Source of the DNA: a virus
DNA: 23,520 nt
IMG/VR virus record: IMGVR_UViG_3300037963_001117
Span: 1-23,520 of that record
Direction: 5' to 3' (one strand)
Below the pieces are notes generated by a model that did no database searches, was not told the origin of the DNA, and was given only the letters and a program-made list of their open reading frames with translations. Each line of letters starts with the position of its first letter. Positions within the stretch are counted from its first letter, which is position 1. The position numbers were made by a program, and so were the translations under genes. This document shows, piece by piece, positions 10,155 through 19,878 of the stretch.

Positions 10155-11537
10155 TTATTTTTTAGGGATGGAATCGCGGAATAAAGTCAATTCAGATGTA
10201 CAACCTCGCTGGGTGAAAGTAAAAGTATGAGCAGCAATAAGGTATTTACCACTAAACTTTCTATCTTTCATGACACTATCTTGCTGACTGCGTGAAGCAG
10301 GAATATTGAGTTTGATAACGTCACCAGCACAGATTCCAGTATTACCTGGGACTGTGATTGTTAGTTGAATTGCCTTCATTAAATTATATCTAGCAGCAGC
10401 ATATTCTGCAACTGCTAGTGTGTCAGCGGTTTCAGACCCGCTGTCAGGATTTCCTTTTGGTTGACCAGACTTACCCTGCTGATGAATCAACGTAGGAATT
10501 GGTCTGATTTTTTGTCGAGTAGGTGGTGCCCCTTCTCCCGATACCTCTTCAGGCATATTGAATGGGGGTGACTCGTGAAGGGGAGTTGCTCTGGCAAAAA
10601 TTTTATCAAACGCTGTTTCTCTTGCAGCGTAAATTGTCCCTGACGGTGATGATTTACTCTTGTTACTACCACCATTTGCGGTGACATTGTTAGCACCGAC
10701 GTTGGCAAGACTCACACCACTGGTTACAGTTTTATATGTCCCCATCCTCATATGTCTGAGGTGATTTGCTTTGTCTGGATATTGAATAGACTCAATGTTT
10801 AGGTAACCTTCGTCTTCTGTATGTCCCTGCTGTGCATATACAAATTGGAATCCAGATTCTTGCTCACAAAGACCATCAATAGATCTAAACTGAAATCCTC
10901 GTTGATTCTCATAGAAGAGAAAACCAGATTGTTTTTGTGATCCCTTACCCGATGGTTTTGAATTCTTACCAGATGACTTTCTAGTTACCTTGTCAGAAAT
11001 ATACGAGATGAGGTCAACAGGTCTCCAGTTTGGTGATACAACTTGGACCTTTGAGTGTGCCTCAAAGTTTTCTTCCTTGATACGTTTGCCAGGTGCTTTG
11101 AGATACTTCTTGACGATATGCTTAGGGAGGTTTTCTTCATCCTTAGACGCTCCCTCAGCGATTGCACCAAATGCTTTGAAGACCTTATTGATCTCGTTGT
11201 TATACATCTCAGGTGTGCAGCAATAGATGATATACAACTGACCACGCTCAGACTTGATGATCTTACCAATCTTGTAAACTCTAAAATCTAGTTTTAATTT
11301 ACCCTTGCCGTCTGCTGCCTCAGTGACTACATCTATTTGCACCTTCTCACCACCTGTGAGATTCAGGTTGAAGTCAACAGAGTCAACCATTGATAATTCT
11401 AGACGACAGAAGGGTGCCTCAATAGACTCATAGTACTTAAAGTCTGGCACCATCTTCTTAAGATCAAACTCCTTATCACTATTGGTAGTGAGAGTAATCT
11501 TATTAAGCTTAAATTGTCTTGATTTCTGCTCTGCCAT
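10155..11537 (-). CDS. Baseplate hub protein, gp27-like (460 aa)
   Basis: Near the C-terminus it has the gp27/gpD-type hub pattern: AIQLTITVPGNTGICAGD, VIKLNIPA, KFSGKYLIAAHTFTF and a final strand SELTLFRDS. The N-terminal half (YYESIEAPFCRLELSMVDS, TGGEKVQIDV) resembles the hub beta domain that forms the base of the tail tube. It is longer than T4 gp27 (391 aa) because of a Gly/Ser/Lys-rich insert around residues 185-200 and a flexible Pro-rich stretch at about 330-370. The start overlaps the previous stop (TAATG). The position next to gp5, its T4 partner, supports the call; sequence identity to T4 gp27 is not evident by eye. Confidence 0.65.
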   Translation of the reverse strand: MAEQKSRQFKLNKITLTTNSDKEFDLKKMVPDFKYYESIEAPFCRLELSMVDSVDFNLNLTGGEKVQIDVVTEAADGKGKLKLDFRVYKIGKIIKSERGQLYIIYCCTPEMYNNEINKVFKAFGAIAEGASKDEENLPKHIVKKYLKAPGKRIKEENFEAHSKVQVVSPNWRPVDLISYISDKVTRKSSGKNSKPSGKGSQKQSGFLFYENQRGFQFRSIDGLCEQESGFQFVYAQQGHTEDEGYLNIESIQYPDKANHLRHMRMGTYKTVTSGVSLANVGANNVTANGGSNKSKSSPSGTIYAARETAFDKIFARATPLHESPPFNMPEEVSGEGAPPTRQKIRPIPTLIHQQGKSGQPKGNPDSGSETADTLAVAEYAAARYNLMKAIQLTITVPGNTGICAGDVIKLNIPASRSQQDSVMKDRKFSGKYLIAAHTFTFTQRGCTSELTLFRDSIPKK

Positions 11538-14500
11538 TACATGAAGTTAACAAGTGAAGATCGCGCCTCAGCGACAATACCAAATTTACCGAGAAGATAC
11601 TCGTCAGCATCATTCTTGTCAGAAGTTGGGACGATTATCTCTTCGCCACCACCACCTGCCATAATCGGTGCTGCCTGCTGCTCTTGGACGATAGGTTGCA
11701 TTGCGGCATCACGCTCTGCTGTCATTGCTTTCAGACTATCTAGCTTAGATTCAGTCTTCTTCTGCTGAGCAGTCTCCATCTTTTCGCCAGCTGTATTGGT
11801 GGTGCTGCCATACTTTGCCATCTCGGTAAGACCCTTTTGCAGAGCACCATCTTTACCAAAGAGTTTCTGGATCCTCTCATCAATAGTTAATTCTTTTTCG
11901 TCAGTATCCTTTGACTCAGTTTTAGATTTAGACTTCTCCTTTTCTGCCTTGCGATCTGCTTCAGTTACTGTATCATGCTCTGTAGCAGCTTTCTCTGCTG
12001 CTTCCTGATTAGATAGTCCAGAATCCTTGCCTTCTTGGTATGTCTTATTGAATTCGTAGAATTGATTTGCCTTAGGATGAATACTGATCTCAGTGATCTT
12101 AGAAGCTTTAGCACCACGACCTCTAGAATTGCCCTTGGTCTTATGTCTATTAGCAATGTCGGTCTTAAGACCACCAGAATTCATCACTGCCTTAAACTCA
12201 TCACTGCCAGGCTCAACACCAATTCTCTCCTCACCAAAACCAAGAGTGCCTGCCTTTGTCCTCTTGGACATGCTCTTGATTTTGATCTTTGCATCAGAGG
12301 GATCACCTTCATAAGCATAAGTCACATAGTATGACTTATCATTCAATACTACTCGACTTGCTTGATATGAATCTTTAGCGTATGCCTTAGGATCAAACTT
12401 ACCACCAGCAGCAAAACCAGGCATGGAATATCCACCACGCATTGCTTCACCCCATCTCTGAGATGTTAGACCAGGATTCTTTCTAGTTGCGGGTGTGTCA
12501 AATGGCACAACGAATGCACCACCGCCTGCAAATCCCTTCATACCGACCCACTCAGTGCCATGACCAATAAAGGATGTGGTCAACCCACCATCAAGTGACA
12601 CAGGGTAACCAGACTGAGGACCAGAGATCCATCCACCCATCGCTGCCTTTGGTATAACACCACCTTCAGCGAATCCGAAGAAACTACCAACAGCACCTAG
12701 CAGACCTTTTGCAACTGCCTTCACACCCTTAAAGATAGGATGCTCTACGATTGCCTTGAATAGTTTACCAAACAGTGAAATAGTGCCGTTATCACCAGCG
12801 ATTGCCTCTAGAAGTTTTTCCTCCCACGTCATCGCAGGGTCTATACCTTCTGCCTTACCAGCGTCTTCACCCTTCATCTCTTCAGACGAAGCAGCACTTC
12901 CGCCAATGGCAGACATTGGCACACCAAAGATCTTAGCGATAGGTGCAACCATCGACCCCAGCATGTTTCTGATAGGTGCTGGGAGGAATGCACCGAATAC
13001 TTTACCGATACCACCAATGGCAGTCATGATGCCAACACCCAGTGCCTTGAAGGGGAGTTGCATGAGTTGACCAAATGCCTTGGCAACCTTCATGGTGCGT
13101 CTCAGTTGCTTCGCCATCTCATCTTGCAGGTTGAATGTCCCGCCAGATGCCATCTTAGGTTTGACCATCTTAGCAGTCTGGAATCTTCCACCTGCCGCTT
13201 TACCTGACTTACTCTTCTCTTTATCTACCTCGTCTGTCTTAGGTGCAAAGAATTTCAGCACTGCTGTCAGTGCCTTCAGTCCCAGGAAGAATGGGGCAAA
13301 CATGACCTGGATACCAATACCCAGGATCTTACTGATTAGTGGTAGATGTGGCTCAACAAAGTCGAGAATGGCAGTCATTATACCACCAAGTGCCTCAAAG
13401 AATCCACCTATGGACTCCTTGATAGGTGCCATCACATTGTTGAAGACCTCTCCAACCATGCCGAAGAATTTCTGGATGGGCTCAAAGATGGGCTCTAGGA
13501 ATCCACCGATTGCCTTACCTACCTTACCACCAACAAATCCACCAGCAACACCGCCGATCATCCCACCAAGGGGACCACCAATCTTGTTACCGATTGCTTG
13601 ACCAACCAGAGCACCGCCACCAGTACCTATACCAGCACCAACTGCCTCTCCTTGACTATCACCAGCAGCTTTCGCTCCAAGGTATGCACTAAGACCAACG
13701 CCACCAGCAATGGCAACCTTACCAAACCTAGAGCTAGCAAATTTCTTTAACTTGCTACCAATCTTTACTGCTTTACCAATGTTGAGGATACCCTTAACAA
13801 GGTTGGTAACAACCCAGGCAACAGATTTGACTGTTGCGCCAGGTGCCTTCAGGAATGCAATCCCTATGAATATAGGAGCAGCAGATAGCAGAAACTGTCC
13901 AAATCCCAACAATCCCTGTAGGGATATGGGATTCTCCATAAACTTAATCAATCCATCCAACGCCGACCCTACTAGGAATGACGTTATCTTATAGACAAAC
14001 TTACCAACAGCGACGAGTGCTTCTGCAAGTTTCTGGACTTTTTCTGGATTCTTAGAGACCCAATCCAGTGCAGCAAATCCAATGAAGAGCTTAAAGATAC
14101 CGCCAAGGAATCTAGCAATAGCACCAAGGAATCCACCGAAAGCACCTTTCGCTGCCTCCTTGAATTCCTTCATCTTCTCATTCTGAATCTTCTTCGGTTT
14201 CTTCTCGCTCTTCTCCTCTTCTTCAGCTCTCTTTTTCTTTGCTTCTTGTAATCTCTCTGCGGCAGTTTTCCTTTTCTCTCTATCTGCCTCTTGCTTCTCT
14301 TTAGCGTCTTCTTGCTTGTTAACAAGGTTATCACCACGGATCTTAGATCTGACGCGATCCTTCATCGCCTGAGTCATTGCCTCTACTTGGAGAGCAATAC
14401 CATTCATCGATGCACCCAAGGAATTCATACCTGAGGTGATACTCTTAAATGCTTTATCCTGATCTTTAGTGATCTTGCTCAACTCATCAGCAGCACTCAA

Positions 14501-14596
14501 GGCAGTAAACTTCTTGCCACCACCAGTGCCCCTATAAGAAATCATCTTATAGAGTTTTGCCTTCTGTACTTTAATTGCTGGTGCTTTGTTTGCCAT
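11537..14596 (-). CDS. Tape-measure-like tail protein A (1019 aa)
   Basis: The N-terminus is followed by a strongly charged coiled coil at about 86-150 (Lys/Glu/Ala/Arg-rich). Next comes a hydrophobic block FLGGIFKLFIGF through ALDWVSKNPEK to VGSALDGLIKF (163-219), then a long Gly/Ala-rich region (about 300-400) with LEPIFEPIQKFFGMV. The C-terminal half has tape-measure-style motifs such as SGPQSGYPVSLDGG and FIGHGTEWV. The block at 163-219 and the Gly-rich region are closely matched in the neighbouring 1203-aa protein. No enzymatic domain was seen. The size, composition and place after gp26 suggest a T4 gp29-like length-determining or hub role. The last codon overlaps the next start (TAATG). 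Confidence 0.65.
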   Translation of the reverse strand: MANKAPAIKVQKAKLYKMISYRGTGGGKKFTALSAADELSKITKDQDKAFKSITSGMNSLGASMNGIALQVEAMTQAMKDRVRSKIRGDNLVNKQEDAKEKQEADREKRKTAAERLQEAKKKRAEEEEKSEKKPKKIQNEKMKEFKEAAKGAFGGFLGAIARFLGGIFKLFIGFAALDWVSKNPEKVQKLAEALVAVGKFVYKITSFLVGSALDGLIKFMENPISLQGLLGFGQFLLSAAPIFIGIAFLKAPGATVKSVAWVVTNLVKGILNIGKAVKIGSKLKKFASSRFGKVAIAGGVGLSAYLGAKAAGDSQGEAVGAGIGTGGGALVGQAIGNKIGGPLGGMIGGVAGGFVGGKVGKAIGGFLEPIFEPIQKFFGMVGEVFNNVMAPIKESIGGFFEALGGIMTAILDFVEPHLPLISKILGIGIQVMFAPFFLGLKALTAVLKFFAPKTDEVDKEKSKSGKAAGGRFQTAKMVKPKMASGGTFNLQDEMAKQLRRTMKVAKAFGQLMQLPFKALGVGIMTAIGGIGKVFGAFLPAPIRNMLGSMVAPIAKIFGVPMSAIGGSAASSEEMKGEDAGKAEGIDPAMTWEEKLLEAIAGDNGTISLFGKLFKAIVEHPIFKGVKAVAKGLLGAVGSFFGFAEGGVIPKAAMGGWISGPQSGYPVSLDGGLTTSFIGHGTEWVGMKGFAGGGAFVVPFDTPATRKNPGLTSQRWGEAMRGGYSMPGFAAGGKFDPKAYAKDSYQASRVVLNDKSYYVTYAYEGDPSDAKIKIKSMSKRTKAGTLGFGEERIGVEPGSDEFKAVMNSGGLKTDIANRHKTKGNSRGRGAKASKITEISIHPKANQFYEFNKTYQEGKDSGLSNQEAAEKAATEHDTVTEADRKAEKEKSKSKTESKDTDEKELTIDERIQKLFGKDGALQKGLTEMAKYGSTTNTAGEKMETAQQKKTESKLDSLKAMTAERDAAMQPIVQEQQAAPIMAGGGGEEIIVPTSDKNDADEYLLGKFGIVAEARSSLVNFM

Positions 14597-14599
14597 CTA

Positions 14600-17500
14600 T
14601 TACTGAGTGAGAAGAGGCGAAGGTTTGGTATACACAGCTCTAGTGCTACCTGATGTATTTATCTGCTGTGTGACACGTTGTATCACTACACGCTCCTGCA
14701 CGACAGGGTATACCTCTGCAAGACCGTCACGCTCTGACTTCTCCTTGATCGCTTGCAATTTCTTCATTGAATCTTCCTTGACCCTACCAACTGCCATAAT
14801 GTTTGAAGGATCAGTAGTTACTCTCTCTGGTTTTAAGTCTTCGAGAGATTCGCCAGTAGCATTACTCTTAGGGGTAGATGTATCAATACCTGTATCTGGT
14901 CCTAGTTTACTTAATGCCTCAGCAAGACCTGTCTTGAATGCTTCCAGCATCTCTGCAACAGTCTTGGGTTTAGTATCCGCAGCCTGCTCAGTATCACCAC
15001 CACCGTCACCTGTGGTATTTACATTACCTTCAGATGTTGTGGTATCTACATCAGATCCATCACCAATTTTCTTAGATGGTTTGATAGATCTAGGTGCTCT
15101 CCACATCCAGACATCACCATCAGGCAACTGATTCTGGAAGAGATTCTTGTCCATGAAGTAATACTTACCAGGACCACCTGTCTTATCACCAGCACTGTTA
15201 GTCTTCTTCCAAGTGCCACCGAAGTTTAGTTGTCCAAATGGATCATGTACAACGAATCCATTGTTTTTGTATCCAACAACCATACCCCAGTGTCCAGATC
15301 CTTTATATTTGAATCCGACTGGGACAGGATACCCTGCTTGCACCTCTTTACGAAGTGATTCCCAACTCTGACCAGTTTCTAATACAGAATCAATACCAAA
15401 GTCTGCAAGTGCTCTCTTCTGAGGATATGCCTCAGTTGAGATACCATATCCACTACGGACCTTGTTGTAGTCCTCAGCAGTCATGGGTTTACCTGTGAGT
15501 TGTGCTACCCACATTGCCATCGTGGTTGAATAGCACTGAGTATCACCAGGACGACCATACTTGTCTGCCTTGTTTGCTCTCTGGTTGATGTAAGGCACAT
15601 CTTGAATGACCTTACCACCCTCAGCAGCAAACTGAATACCAGCACGCTTACTGCTGCCAGATTCCATCACACCTGCTTCGTCATTACGACGCCAGCTATT
15701 GATACCACCGTTATGCTTAGCTAGCTTATTACGGTATGCAGCAATAACTGGACCGTAATCACCACTCTTCAGTGCCTGTTGCACAGTGCCTCTAATGCCA
15801 GCACCATCTAAAGATCCATAGTTAAAGACTACAGACTCAAGAGCAGCTTTTACTCTATTAGGTGCCTTGTTATAGTCACCACCAACCTCATCAACGAGGC
15901 GTTGACGGTGCTCAATAATATGCTTAGATTTGATCCAATATGCTTCCTCTTCGGTGATCGTGTCACCTTTCTTGACTTTACCCGACTTACGGAATCCAGA
16001 TGGATAATAAGTTGCACCAATACCAATGGTAGGAATTTCCCATCCATAGTTAGCATCGGCATATGCCTCTGTCCTCAGTCCTTCATAGTTGCCTAGAAGT
16101 GCTGCAAACTTCTCATCAAATCCACCAGGAATGTTTTTAACTGGAGTAGTGCCACCAGGACCATTATTGGTGCTTGCTGAAGACCCTGTTACTCCCTGAG
16201 ATCTTTGCTTCTCTATTTGTGCTGCTTGAGCAGGATCAAAGATCTTGATGCCATTGATGAGGAGTTTATTCAACCCATCATGAATAGCACCATAGATATT
16301 CTTTTTATAAGTGAGTTGCTTTGAATTCTCAACCTTCTTCTTCTCAGTCTGTGTTGCTTGGAAGGTGACAGCTGTACTTACACCACCTGCTGCAGCTCCA
16401 CCGCCTGTCCCAACACTGACACCAAATGCAGCGCCAAGTTTTCCAATATCAGGTGCTAAGACAGTTTTTACCTTGTTGCCAACAAATCCAAATGCACCAA
16501 GACTACCTACGATTGCCTTCAGGTAGAGACCACCTGTAGCAGCGAGCATATCTGGATGACTACCAAATTGCAGGGGACCACCTGCTGCCATCTCTACAGG
16601 TCCACCTGCTGCCTTCTTATTCTCTCCGTCGAAGTCAAACAGGTTGAATGTCAACGCATCAGCAATACCACCTGCCACAGAGGCAGGATTCATGAGACGT
16701 TTAGCGTTGTTAACAACAAACTGGACTACACCACCAATAGCATCAAATACAGCACCAAGGATGAAACCAGTAAAGTCCATCAAGACCTTGGCACCATCCA
16801 TCAGGAATTTGCCAAGTTTACCGATCAACTCAAAGATCATGCCCATGGGCTCTTTGACCTGATCGATGATCGGACCTAACGTCATCTTAACGAGGTCGAA
16901 GACCATACCAAAGTATCTCTTGATAGGTCCGAAGATAGGCTCCATGAGTGGACCTAACTCTTTACCTACCCATTCACCCAGGAAACTACCAATAGCATTA
17001 CCAACGATAGGTGCAAAGGGTCCCAGGAAGGGTCCTAGCAGTGCTGTGCCTGCAATACCACCAAGGACACCACCCGCTGCCTGACCCACACCAGCACCGA
17101 TTGCAGAGGATGCCTTCTCGCCAGTAGCGAGACCTCCTGCAATCCTAGAGGCACCACCAAGGAGACCCATCCCGACGTTTACCTTACCGCCGAGTTTACC
17201 AAATACTTTATTTGCTTTGGTGCCGAGTTTACCCTTAAATCCTTTATACTTGTCGCCCATGCCGCGACGCATCTTGGAGAATCGACTCTCTTTGCCGAAT
17301 CTCTCCTCAAATGCCTTCTTAGCACCAGGACGCTTGCGGTCTGCCTTTTCGGCAGCCTTCCGCATTTGTTGTACTTCTTCTTTGGAGTATATAACTCCAG
17401 TCTTTGGATCTCTAAATCCGCTCTTTCTTACTTGTGCGTTTCTTTCTGCTTCAGCAGATGCCTCAGCATTCCCTGAGAAAATCATTCTCAGACGATTAAC

Positions 17501-18211
17501 GTCCTTCATGAGTTTCCAAGGCATGATCATATACTGTGCTGTCCTAAGCACAGCAAGTCCACCCATCAGTTGTACGACACCAAGTATACCTCGGAGTCCA
17601 CGTCTGATAGCACCCTCTTCACTATAGTTGCCGAAGACATTTGTCAGACCATCGAGAATCATCCCGACGCCCATCTTGGTAAGCTTAAAGGCAAACTTAC
17701 CTATGGCAAATAGGACCTTGAATACCTTAACTGCCTTCTCAGCATTCTGTGGGTTACTTAACCAATTCAGTGCCCCAAATATAATAAGATACTTGAATAC
17801 CCTGAAGATTCCATTTAGGAATCTACCAAGCATACTCATCTTGGGTTTTTCTTTCTCGACCGCCTTGCGACCTTCTTCTTTACCTTCCTCTAAGCCCTGT
17901 TCTGCCTGCTCTTCTAAATTCTCACGTTTCTTCTTTGCGAAAGATCTTCGGAATTTCCGCATGGCGTCAGTCCACTTGGTCTTTTCCTTCTTATCTTTCT
18001 TCTTGATGTCCGTGACTTCTGCTTTAGAAGTGTCTGAAAGATACTCTGTTTCAAACTTTAGAAGCTCAGTCGTATCATAAAAACTCTTGGCAATGCCATC
18101 TGTGACCGCTCCCATGCGATTGATGCTCTTACGCACCTGATCCATGTTTTGAGCGATACCTGACTTACCAGTTATCGGTTGAATTTTTACGAAACTACGA
18201 ATTGCTGCCAT
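14600..18211 (-). CDS. Tape-measure-like tail protein B with GH24 lysozyme and C39-like peptidase (1203 aa)
   Basis: The first 550 residues match protein A: a charged coiled coil (about 66-125), a hydrophobic block FLNGIFRVFKYLIIFGALNW (131-150) to ILDGLTNVF (193), a Gly-rich region and EPIFGPIKRYFGMV (about 440). Residues about 695-845 form a GH24 (T4-lysozyme) domain: E710 in NYEGLR, D719 in AYAD, T728 in PTIGIG, equivalent to E11-D20-T26 of T4 lysozyme. Residues about 870-1040 form a C39-like (papain-fold) domain: C893 in DTQCYSTT, H974 in SGHWGMVVGY, D990 in VVHDPFG. A Ser/Thr/Asp-rich linker leads to the C-terminus. Together these indicate a tail protein that cleaves both glycan and peptide bonds of peptidoglycan. 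The start at 18211 overlaps the preceding stop (TAATG). Confidence 0.8.
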   Translation of the reverse strand: MAAIRSFVKIQPITGKSGIAQNMDQVRKSINRMGAVTDGIAKSFYDTTELLKFETEYLSDTSKAEVTDIKKKDKKEKTKWTDAMRKFRRSFAKKKRENLEEQAEQGLEEGKEEGRKAVEKEKPKMSMLGRFLNGIFRVFKYLIIFGALNWLSNPQNAEKAVKVFKVLFAIGKFAFKLTKMGVGMILDGLTNVFGNYSEEGAIRRGLRGILGVVQLMGGLAVLRTAQYMIMPWKLMKDVNRLRMIFSGNAEASAEAERNAQVRKSGFRDPKTGVIYSKEEVQQMRKAAEKADRKRPGAKKAFEERFGKESRFSKMRRGMGDKYKGFKGKLGTKANKVFGKLGGKVNVGMGLLGGASRIAGGLATGEKASSAIGAGVGQAAGGVLGGIAGTALLGPFLGPFAPIVGNAIGSFLGEWVGKELGPLMEPIFGPIKRYFGMVFDLVKMTLGPIIDQVKEPMGMIFELIGKLGKFLMDGAKVLMDFTGFILGAVFDAIGGVVQFVVNNAKRLMNPASVAGGIADALTFNLFDFDGENKKAAGGPVEMAAGGPLQFGSHPDMLAATGGLYLKAIVGSLGAFGFVGNKVKTVLAPDIGKLGAAFGVSVGTGGGAAAGGVSTAVTFQATQTEKKKVENSKQLTYKKNIYGAIHDGLNKLLINGIKIFDPAQAAQIEKQRSQGVTGSSASTNNGPGGTTPVKNIPGGFDEKFAALLGNYEGLRTEAYADANYGWEIPTIGIGATYYPSGFRKSGKVKKGDTITEEEAYWIKSKHIIEHRQRLVDEVGGDYNKAPNRVKAALESVVFNYGSLDGAGIRGTVQQALKSGDYGPVIAAYRNKLAKHNGGINSWRRNDEAGVMESGSSKRAGIQFAAEGGKVIQDVPYINQRANKADKYGRPGDTQCYSTTMAMWVAQLTGKPMTAEDYNKVRSGYGISTEAYPQKRALADFGIDSVLETGQSWESLRKEVQAGYPVPVGFKYKGSGHWGMVVGYKNNGFVVHDPFGQLNFGGTWKKTNSAGDKTGGPGKYYFMDKNLFQNQLPDGDVWMWRAPRSIKPSKKIGDGSDVDTTTSEGNVNTTGDGGGDTEQAADTKPKTVAEMLEAFKTGLAEALSKLGPDTGIDTSTPKSNATGESLEDLKPERVTTDPSNIMAVGRVKEDSMKKLQAIKEKSERDGLAEVYPVVQERVVIQRVTQQINTSGSTRAVYTKPSPLLTQ
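14656..14663 (-). promoter_or_regulatory. Possible late promoter GATAAATA before tape-measure A
   Basis: GATAAATA lies about 60 nt before the start at 14596, inside the 3' end of the upstream gene. The spacing and strand fit a late promoter, but it is within coding sequence. Confidence 0.45.
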
Positions 18212-18408
18212 TAGAGGGACATGCGTGACTGATCTTGGTTTTGCCGTCTTTCTTCCTCAGCAATATGTGCGAGGAGAAGATTCACATATACATCTCTTTC
18301 CCACGGAATCATATTCTCCAACTCGGTTAGTGAATACTTGTGGTGCTGCATCAAGGCAAAGTTTGTTTTGTAGTAGTTTTCAAGACTATCGTGCAATAGG
18401 GCTACGCG
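18211..18408 (-). CDS. -1 frameshift extension of gp26 (65 codons)
   Basis: This frame is open from 18426 to the stop at 18211-18213 and lies in the -1 frame relative to gp26. It has no ATG near its beginning: the first possible initiator is a TTG at 18396 without Shine-Dalgarno, and the first in-frame ATG is some 16 codons further on. Entry by slippage at 18408-18414 appends RVAL and then LHDSLENYYKTN, ending in HKYSLTELENMIPWERDVYV and LLAHIAEEERR. The 'PWE...LL...EEE' pattern resembles the C-terminal domains of frameshifted tail-assembly chaperones. The fusion would be 298 residues. The stop overlaps the next gene's start (TAATG). It may be annotated elsewhere as a free small gene or as gp51. 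Confidence 0.6.
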   Translation of the reverse strand, partial: RVALLHDSLENYYKTNFALMQHHKYSLTELENMIPWERDVYVNLLLAHIAEEERRQNQDQSRMSL

Positions 18409-19106
18409 AAAAAAGCAGCGAGTCCTTCAAGCACAACATCAGATGTAACTCCAGTGTTGGGGTTTGTGACAGGGAGTGTGTATGTCAACTTAGGCATAGT
18501 CTCAAAGAATTTCTGGATCTTAGCAAACTGCTCAGAATTCAGATCTTCAAGGAATTCAAGTGCTTCCTTCTTAGTGAAGTTGTCATAGACTTCTTCGCTG
18601 TCGTAAACACTTTCAATGCAACCTGCTGCCAACTCAAACACATCTTCTAGTCCAGGGTTATCCGACATGTTTTGACTGATGAATACATCAATCGAAGGAT
18701 ATTTCATAACCACACCCACTTCTTTATCAAGGAGAATTTTCTTCTCATGATCAGCAGGGATCTCAACCTGTACTTCATTCAGAGGCACCATCACTTCGAC
18801 CTGGGTCTTTTCATCATCGGGACAAGTGATCTTGAATTCACTTGCTTCACCAACAGCAGTAGCACGAATGCGGAGGAAGATGAATTCAATCTCAAAGGTT
18901 GCGAGATCTTCTACCTTACTCTTCAGGTTGGTGCAATTCTTGATGATGGTCTTGACTGCCTTGATCATCTGCTTGTCGTCTTGCGACTCCATAGCGAGAT
19001 ACAGCAGTTTCTCCTCTTTGACAAGGAATGGTCTATATGTAACTTGAGTGCCTGTAATAGGCAAAGTCAGATCATACTCGGGGATAGCGAGCTTGGGTAA
19101 AGGCAT
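18402..19106 (-). CDS. gp26: Baseplate hub protein gp26 (234 aa)
   Basis: The protein begins MPLPKLAIPEYDLTLPITGT and has the T4 baseplate gp26-family opening Y-RPFLVKEEKLLYLAMESQDDKQM, followed by an all-alpha/beta body (FEIEFIFLRIRATAVGE, CPDDEKTQVEVMVPL) and an acidic helical C-terminus (FTKKEALEFLEDLNSEQFAKIQ). Length is slightly above T4 gp26 (208 aa). GGAG is placed about 6 nt before the ATG. Its position directly upstream of the tape-measure-like genes, with a slippery heptamer at the 3' end, fits a tail-assembly-chaperone role in addition to the hub role assigned in T4. Confidence 0.8.
   Translation of the reverse strand: MPLPKLAIPEYDLTLPITGTQVTYRPFLVKEEKLLYLAMESQDDKQMIKAVKTIIKNCTNLKSKVEDLATFEIEFIFLRIRATAVGEASEFKITCPDDEKTQVEVMVPLNEVQVEIPADHEKKILLDKEVGVVMKYPSIDVFISQNMSDNPGLEDVFELAAGCIESVYDSEEVYDNFTKKEALEFLEDLNSEQFAKIQKFFETMPKLTYTLPVTNPNTGVTSDVVLEGLAAFFA
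18408..18414 (-). promoter_or_regulatory. Programmed -1 frameshift site T TTT TTC
   Basis: The gp26 frame ends GCT GCT TTT TTC GCG TAG, so the last T of GCT plus TTT TTC forms the X XXY YYZ heptamer, two codons before the stop. Slippage by -1 enters a 65-codon open frame. The heptamer lies inside the only window where both frames are open (18402-18426). AAGGA (18423-18427) lies 8 nt upstream as a Shine-Dalgarno-like stimulator, and a weak CTAT/ATAG hairpin begins 8 nt downstream. Confidence 0.65.
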
Positions 19107-19131: not shown

Positions 19132-19878
19132 TTAGGTGCCAAAGAAGGAGGAATCTTCTTGGGCATCGAGTCCCAATGCTTCCGAAATCCTATCAAAGTT
19201 ACGAATAACCTTGTCCTTAGCATTAGGACTGAAGGAGAGGACATCTTCTCCAACCGTGTCAAATCTAAATCTCTCGTATTTGAAATCAACGTCGATCTTC
19301 ATAATATCAGCAGGACCGTTATTGAGAGTCATTGCTGAGATATCAAAGGGGAATGCACCATACATCTGCCATACAGCAGTAGATCTATTCATCCTCTGCT
19401 CAAAATTAACATGTTTACCATTAAAGTTAGTAGCACCTCTGTAAACAATGTTGGCAGCATTCTCCCATTTCAGGATCTGAATGTCTGCAGTATACTCATC
19501 GTAGAATGTAACTCTGTTTTCAGCATCATTTGCAGTCAGATTCATCCATTTCTCAAATAATTGACGATGATACATGTCCTTTGTCATGATGAAGGACATT
19601 CTGACTTCTTGCTTCTGCTGACCATATGCATAATCATATGGTTGACCAACCATCTTAACTGATTGTGTCTTAATTCTTCTTGCGGGGATAGTTACACTAT
19701 CGGCAAAATAGTTAATTGTCTCATAGTGCTCCCTATAGTTGGGATTCATCCCTTTAGCATATAACATCGGAGGGAGTGTGATCTCCACCGAGAATAGATT
19801 CGACTTTGCAATATCCTTCTCGCCACTCGCGACGAGATCGGCAAAACGAAGAAAACTATTTGGATTTCTGTATCCCAT
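19132..19878 (-). CDS. Tail-tube-family protein, gp54/gp19-like (248 aa)
   Basis: The middle is typical of the T4 tail-tube fold: KSNLFSVEITLPPM near the N-terminus, INYFADSVTIPARRI, then QEVRMSFIMTKDMYHRQLFE, VTFYDEYTADIQILKW and a final strand region VDFKYERFRF. The strand-loop order resembles gp19 and its homologues gp48 and gp54. Because tail tube gp19 is normally encoded elsewhere near gp18, this copy in the hub region is most likely the tube initiator gp54. It is shorter than T4 gp54 (320 aa). The start overlaps the preceding stop (TAATG). A late motif lies 145 nt upstream. Confidence 0.55.
   Translation of the reverse strand: MGYRNPNSFLRFADLVASGEKDIAKSNLFSVEITLPPMLYAKGMNPNYREHYETINYFADSVTIPARRIKTQSVKMVGQPYDYAYGQQKQEVRMSFIMTKDMYHRQLFEKWMNLTANDAENRVTFYDEYTADIQILKWENAANIVYRGATNFNGKHVNFEQRMNRSTAVWQMYGAFPFDISAMTLNNGPADIMKIDVDFKYERFRFDTVGEDVLSFSPNAKDKVIRNFDRISEALGLDAQEDSSFFGT

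Follow-up and report, generated by a model that had tools for sequence, protein, structure and literature searches.

In phage lambda, a short protein (G) and its -1 extended form (GT) are encoded between the tail tube and tape measure genes, and PMC5009743, in its passage on this point, describes G-T frameshifting as widely conserved in long-tailed phages "except T4". Phage P2 offers a second case in its E and E+E' proteins, with an annotated -1 frameshift just before the tape measure gene and an in-phase T TTT TTG. For T4-like phages, Vladimirov et al. 2022 is cited in a passage of PMC10885494 for a short gene and a long fusion gene in some of them, and in a passage of PMC12846349 for poly-T slippery sequences in the genes of the short tail assembly chaperone (TAC-N). 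Here we describe gp26 and an overlapping -1 frame in a T4-like phage from the uncultivated marine virus record IMGVR_UViG_3300037963_001117 of IMG/VR, a record of 35,783 bases of which we analyzed positions 1 to 23,520 (the window). Among the phage-collection records searched, a set that may leave out near-identical ones, the best annotated hits belong to the Kyanoviridae, e.g., S-SZBM1 (gp26 65.8% identical) and P-TIM40 (65.3%). Vladimirov et al. reportedly found that frameshifting is kept in several T4-like groups, T4 using genes 26 and 51. The frameshift chaperone device in T4-like phages had already been proposed in 2022, and the present locus is a further member. A first-pass annotation of the window, made from its letters alone, had been aware of no established description for gp26 of T4-like phages; the gene pair is not undescribed, given the citations above and the homology to the gp51 C terminus noted in 2010 (a passage of PMC3037559). 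Among the openly licensed papers searched, we found no experimental report of a frameshift in a cyanophage gp26.

We are confident that a -1 frameshift yields two proteins at this locus, a short gp26 (TAC-N) and a 298-amino acid long form (TAC-NC). Gp26 is a 234-amino acid open reading frame on the minus strand (18402-19106; all features below are on this strand) that matches the Pfam family PF12322, T4_baseplate, at 234.2 bits (E 1.8e-69), above the gathering cut-off of 24.5, and PHROG 150 at E 1.1e-75. Its 3' end reads GCT GCT TTT TTC GCG TAG and contains, in phase with gp26, the heptamer T TTT TTC (18408-18414), one codon ahead of the TAG (18402-18404). The -1 frame stays open from 18426 until a TAA at 18213-18211, and after the shift it would add 65 residues (TAC-C, T-like; 18211-18408), giving a joined protein of 298 amino acids. 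The first-pass annotation had pointed to the gp26 ending with its heptamer, to the open -1 frame, to the length of the fusion and to an AAGGA 8 nt upstream of the heptamer (18423-18427), and each of these is present as described. Compared across loci, the sequence holds a slippery heptamer, an open, conserved and coding -1 frame, early starts that lack a Shine-Dalgarno-like motif, and a joined protein homologous to gp51, which in T4-type phages is a single reading frame.

We infer that ribosomes slip, how often they do so, what AAGGA contributes and that the products act as chaperones, and would picture this as follows. The majority of ribosomes would terminate at the gp26 TAG, and a minority would slip one base back on T TTT TTC, the P- and A-site tRNAs re-pairing on TTT TTT, probably aided by the Shine-Dalgarno-like AAGGA upstream. 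The slipped ribosomes would continue in the -1 frame to give the long form. If the pair works as lambda G and GT do, the tape measure protein would be coated by many copies of the short form, and the few long forms would bring in the tail tube subunit.

The bare string TTTTTTC occurs 5 times in the window against a chance mean of 4.63, and because it is as common as chance predicts, the case rests on comparison. We fetched 80 loci from IMG/VR by gp26 and 80 by the extension (the sets overlap) and added named phages, giving 164 loci besides the window; 162 were analyzed after dropping L001 (the window's own record), L082 (whose contig ends 43 bases past the gp26 match) and L144 (no gp26 match). 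In the alignment of gp26 3' ends that the first-pass annotation had proposed, an in-phase T TTT TTH stands at the end of gp26 in 161 of the 162 loci, window included (150 TTTTTTC, 6 TTTTTTA and 5 TTTTTTT). Loci picked by gp26 alone agree: 79 of the 80 could be analyzed and all 79 have the heptamer, whereas the contig of L082 stops too soon. From the 161 loci with the heptamer we drew 143 distinct ones, a set that excludes L140. In these, the codon before the heptamer is AGT, TCT, GCT, GAT, AAT or GGT, always ending in T though the residue varies (Ser, Ala, Asp, Asn, Gly). As a control, a conserved FF pair ∼30 codons upstream in gp26 is written T TTT TTN in 2 of 131 cases. The 32,175 gp26 codons away from the site in the 143 distinct loci hold an in-phase T TTT TT 16 times.

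Since the site is a run of T, RNA polymerase could instead slip on it and produce mRNAs already in the shifted frame. The run is six T long in 138 of the 143 loci (seven in 2 and eight in 3), which is short for efficient transcriptional slippage, and a heptamer held in phase while its last base varies (C in 132, A in 6 and T in 5) is what one expects where tRNAs slip in tandem; we therefore regard slippage during transcription as most unlikely. Upstream of the heptamer, a Shine-Dalgarno-like motif ends 8 to 10 nt before it in 135 of the 143 distinct loci and is missing in 6, and predicted pairing with the anti-Shine-Dalgarno sequence beats synonymous resampling by 1.54 kcal/mol (standard error 0.19). 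These observations are consistent with tRNA slippage assisted by an upstream stimulator, for which AAGGA is the candidate in the window.

The extension itself behaves as coding sequence. It matches PHROG 634, "baseplate hub assembly catalyst", at E 1.1e-30, and it lies in the -1 frame relative to gp26 in all 143 distinct loci. Over the 50 codons past the site, the two alternative frames contain 834 and 734 stops and the -1 frame none (the L077 contig ends after ∼44 codons), so that the proposed alignment bears out the open frame as well as the heptamer. The median ratio of nonsynonymous to synonymous rates (dN/dS) is 0.085 over 576 pairs, with pairs lacking a computable value omitted; the corresponding proportions of differing sites are 0.108 for nonsynonymous (pN) and 0.666 for synonymous (pS) sites, the latter near saturation. 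An in-frame long form exists in relatives of T4, and the -1 frame could on that account be a relic in decay from an ancestor whose long chaperone was encoded in frame. The low dN/dS and the 50 codons free of stops oppose decay, and we give that explanation almost no credence.

A separate small gene, gp51, with a start of its own is how many annotations treat the extension. Separate coding sequences (CDS) are annotated in S-SZBM1, P-TIM40, syn9, HTVC008M and Syn1, and in a hand count of feature names over 60 listed records (of 550 matched), 43 carry a separate feature over the domain, 14 only the hub gene or a neighbor and 3 no annotation. The extension, which the first-pass annotation called hidden, is hidden only in part: the domain is a known family and separately annotated in 43 of the 60. 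We defined an early start as an ATG, GTG or TTG lying past the upstream -1 stop and no later than extension codon 8, and a Shine-Dalgarno-like tetramer as AGGA, GGAG, GAGG or AAGG. An ATG does fall in that interval in 75 of the 143 loci, and a TAATG overlap, at which the extension could restart, is found in Vibrio R10Z, Dickeya phiD3 and Vibrio D507. However, such a TAATG occurs in 2 of the 143, no early start of any kind exists in 57, and none of the 143 has a Shine-Dalgarno-like tetramer ahead of an early start, an arrangement that the first-pass annotation had named as telling against frameshifting. It had also found no usable start for the small frame in the window, and we concur: the candidate there is a TTG at 18396 with no preceding Shine-Dalgarno-like tetramer, and the first ATG (18349-18351, codon index 21, its first base at 18351) lies inside the conserved domain. 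In 64 of the 143 loci the first ATG likewise comes at extension codon 20 or beyond.

The CDS annotated in P-TIM40, syn9 and Syn1 ("gp51"-type) start ∼20 codons inside the domain, at about the window's first ATG, and that of S-SZBM1 begins at the seventh codon of the domain. A passage of PMC3037559 (2010) describes cyanophage gp51 as ∼20% the length of other gp51 proteins, lacking the first ∼200 residues and resembling their C-terminal region. Conservation extends up to the heptamer, a separate gene would leave the conserved heptamer unexplained, and T4-type gp51 is one continuous protein; an independently started gene is thus improbable. Our data suggest rather that the cyanophage entries named "gp51 baseplate hub assembly catalyst" represent the C-terminal piece of a frameshift fusion and not a free protein.

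Homology to the T4 proteins connects the two parts of this fusion. T4 gp51 and T4 gp26 both belong to PF12322 (177.5 and 215.6 bits, cut-off 24.5), and residues 147-246 of T4 gp51 match the family to which the extension belongs, PHROG 634. We compared a profile of the joined proteins, built from the 143 loci plus 11 named phages, with a profile of eight T4-type gp51 proteins (E-values are for single comparisons). The alignment ran end to end over 242 columns and crossed the junction (E 6e-20). The extension alone matched the gp51 C terminus (E 7e-8) and, in a single profile comparison, did not match T4-type gp26 (E 0.81), while T4-type gp51 and T4-type gp26 matched each other (E 4e-14). T4-type gp51 is encoded by a single continuous open reading frame.

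Several observations weigh against the frameshift or against the chaperone assignment, and they come from the comparison of loci, from RNA folding and from the protein models. The loci are related to one another, so the counts above are not independent events. One locus, L140, has T GTT TTC in place of the heptamer. Among 16 distant relatives of our choosing, some still filed as Kyanoviridae, 12 have, in favor of the frameshift, both the heptamer and the -1 extension (pf16, R10Z, Ahp1, SRB7757, HTVC008M, ACP17, OLIVR6, BUCT-ZZ01, nACB2, S-CREM2, Mendera and X1) and 4 lack the pair (SFP10, phiD3, Vibrio D507 and IME-SM1). The -1 extension is kept without the heptamer in SFP10, phiD3, 15 further ackermannvirus loci and Vibrio D507. 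Loss of the heptamer in relatives had also been named in advance as unfavorable; the heptamer is kept in 161 of the 162 loci, which speaks for the frameshift, and the ackermannviruses lack it, which does not. Vibrio R10Z combines T TTT TTC with a TAATG at which the extension could restart (L167:2986-3153).

The sites of these exceptions differ in form. The gp26 relatives of ackermannviruses (L173:3001-3960, L177:1501-2456 and L195-L209) end ATT TTC ATT TAA, with no canonical slippery heptamer. A TAATG overlap is present in phiD3 and Vibrio D507 and absent in the kutterviruses, which have ATT where the TAATG of phiD3 has ATG and whose first start codon of any kind (ATG, GTG or TTG) comes in a GTG-ATG pair within the domain. 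At the slip site, Stenotrophomonas phage IME-SM1 carries a run of five T and Mendera one of six (L172:3700-3830 versus L193:1500-1640). Because 14 other Menderavirus records, Mendera's included, align to the IME-SM1 gp26 as two pieces that span one extra base, its five-T site is likely, on this sequence comparison, an error that wrongly extends gp26 in the record. A scan with the Aeromonas gp26 gave no matches.

Downstream of the heptamer, the mean z-score of the minimum free energy was -1.6 to -1.7 just past the site, as compared with -0.2 to -0.6 further on (72 loci sampled of the 143, with codon-permuted controls). In the window, folding downstream of the heptamer did not exceed that of controls (z +0.7 to +1.1), its one 5-bp hairpin included, and the 29 close relatives have no stem in common, the RNAalifold consensus being nearly empty (-0.74 kcal/mol). 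A long hairpin from L013 placed on these 29 relatives left 77.1% of cells paired, compared with 75.1% after shuffling (0 of 500 shuffles as high) and 34 to 38% for slid versions; for pairs in which both partners change, 76 of 500 shuffles reached the observed number, and for pair types 456 did, neither being above the shuffles. Across the 143 loci, 124 have some stem of at least 5 bp versus 119.3 in synonymous controls, and 69 have one of at least 6 bp versus 72.4; some stem registers exceed their controls (49 versus 25.5; 21 versus 10.9) and others do not (29 versus 29.7; 14 versus 22.4). We do not claim a conserved downstream RNA structure in the window. By eye, L141, L150, L112 and L158 (alignment A4, columns 14-31) each show a short perfect hairpin a few bases past the heptamer, with apparent compensatory changes and a register that differs between clades.

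For the protein fold, we built an AlphaFold2 model of gp26 from a 63-sequence alignment (mean predicted local distance difference test score, pLDDT, 84.5). VIA-align was run on this model against 886 chains that Foldseek had picked out beforehand. The HK97 tail assembly chaperone 2ob9 ranked first (Z 5.5, root-mean-square deviation (rmsd) 3.8, 83 residues) and YqbN, 3klu, second (Z 5.3, rmsd 4.0, 85 residues), with the next chain at Z 3.3; we take YqbN to be a tail assembly chaperone as well. This ranking favors, without proving, a chaperone assignment for the modeled gp26. On the other side, Z-scores near 5 are modest, and Foldseek alone found no match below E 0.5 in the PDB, with 2ob9 at rank 4 (E 0.75). 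Against predicted viral proteins, the gp26 model gave 54 matches at E ≤ 0.001, and the named ones at the top were mostly baseplate hub proteins. A model of gp51 from a T4-type phage (IMG/VR locus L188; pLDDT 87.4) has helices at 208-223, 228-232 and 236-251, where the extension falls; it had no significant Foldseek match in the PDB, 2ob9 and 3klu were absent among the VIA-align rows listed, and we do not interpret the best row, C1QBP (Z 5.2). Sequence searches for relatives of solved structure turned up nothing for gp26 and, for gp51, two rows at the level of chance. Gp26 is probably the short, G-like chaperone and the fusion the long, GT-like one; this equivalence, put forward in the first-pass annotation, is supported by the heptamer in 161 of 162 loci, the end-to-end gp51 match and the two chaperones at the top of the VIA-align ranking.

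The neighboring genes are arranged on the minus strand in the order tail-tube-like protein, gp26, -1 frame domain and tape-measure/lysin-like protein. Directly upstream of gp26 lies a tail tube or tube-initiator-like protein (19132-19878; PHROG 45 tail tube, E 2e-43; Phage_TTP_2, E 1.2e-7). Downstream, the start of a 1203-amino acid protein (14600-18211) overlaps the extension stop in a TAATG, as the first-pass annotation had read it, with the next reading frame starting at 18211. This protein contains lysozyme and C39-like domains (C39-peptidase-like) and matches PHROG 90 endolysin (E 1.9e-38) and, weakly, PHROG 167 tape measure (E 4e-7). The TAC-N/TAC-NC arrangement, in which a short open reading frame and its -1 extension immediately precede the tape measure gene, is present here with a tape measure match that is itself weak. 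Two very long tape-measure/lysin-like proteins stand back to back on this strand (14600-18211 and 11537-14596), the first being the lysozyme/C39-peptidase-like one.

Beyond the known systems, the chaperone frameshift signal is recorded here, against controls, for one uncultivated marine phage and across 143 distinct loci; the breadth, the controls and the correction of the "gp51" annotation are what this adds to the earlier work. The lambda order V, G, T and H matches tube, gp26, extension and tape measure here, a likeness of gene order and mechanism only, whereas the lambda site, which we located in the lambda sequence, is GGGAAAG, presumably the G/GT slip site. The P2 heptamer is almost the one described here, although gpE has 91 amino acids. 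In a passage of PMC12846349, the chaperone locus of Pakpunavirus and Vandenendeviridae is described as having GTTTTT conserved, with an open -1 frame that is usually given as a gene of its own; these are another phage group, and the likeness is one of description. T4 is alike in protein and differs in mechanism: gp51 is equivalent to the gp26 domain and the extension taken together, but the short and long forms come from two separate, divergently transcribed genes and not from a frameshift. Passages of PMC3004832 list T4 gp26 and gp51 as hub assembly chaperones, with gp51 not in the final particle, and cite genetic evidence for gp26 in the T4 hub. It is conceivable, though we put it forward only tentatively, that T4-like lineages have exchanged three devices for one short/long chaperone pair: -1 slippage, in cyanophages and in many other phages; a separate long copy read in frame, in T4 and its kin; and a third route in ackermannviruses, by stop-start overlap or a noncanonical slip. 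The third route is proposed because the -1 extension is kept there without the T6 heptamer and, in kutterviruses, without an ATG, GTG or TTG at its beginning. The encoding of the short and long forms by two divergent genes in T4 fits the exception made for that phage in the passage of PMC5009743.

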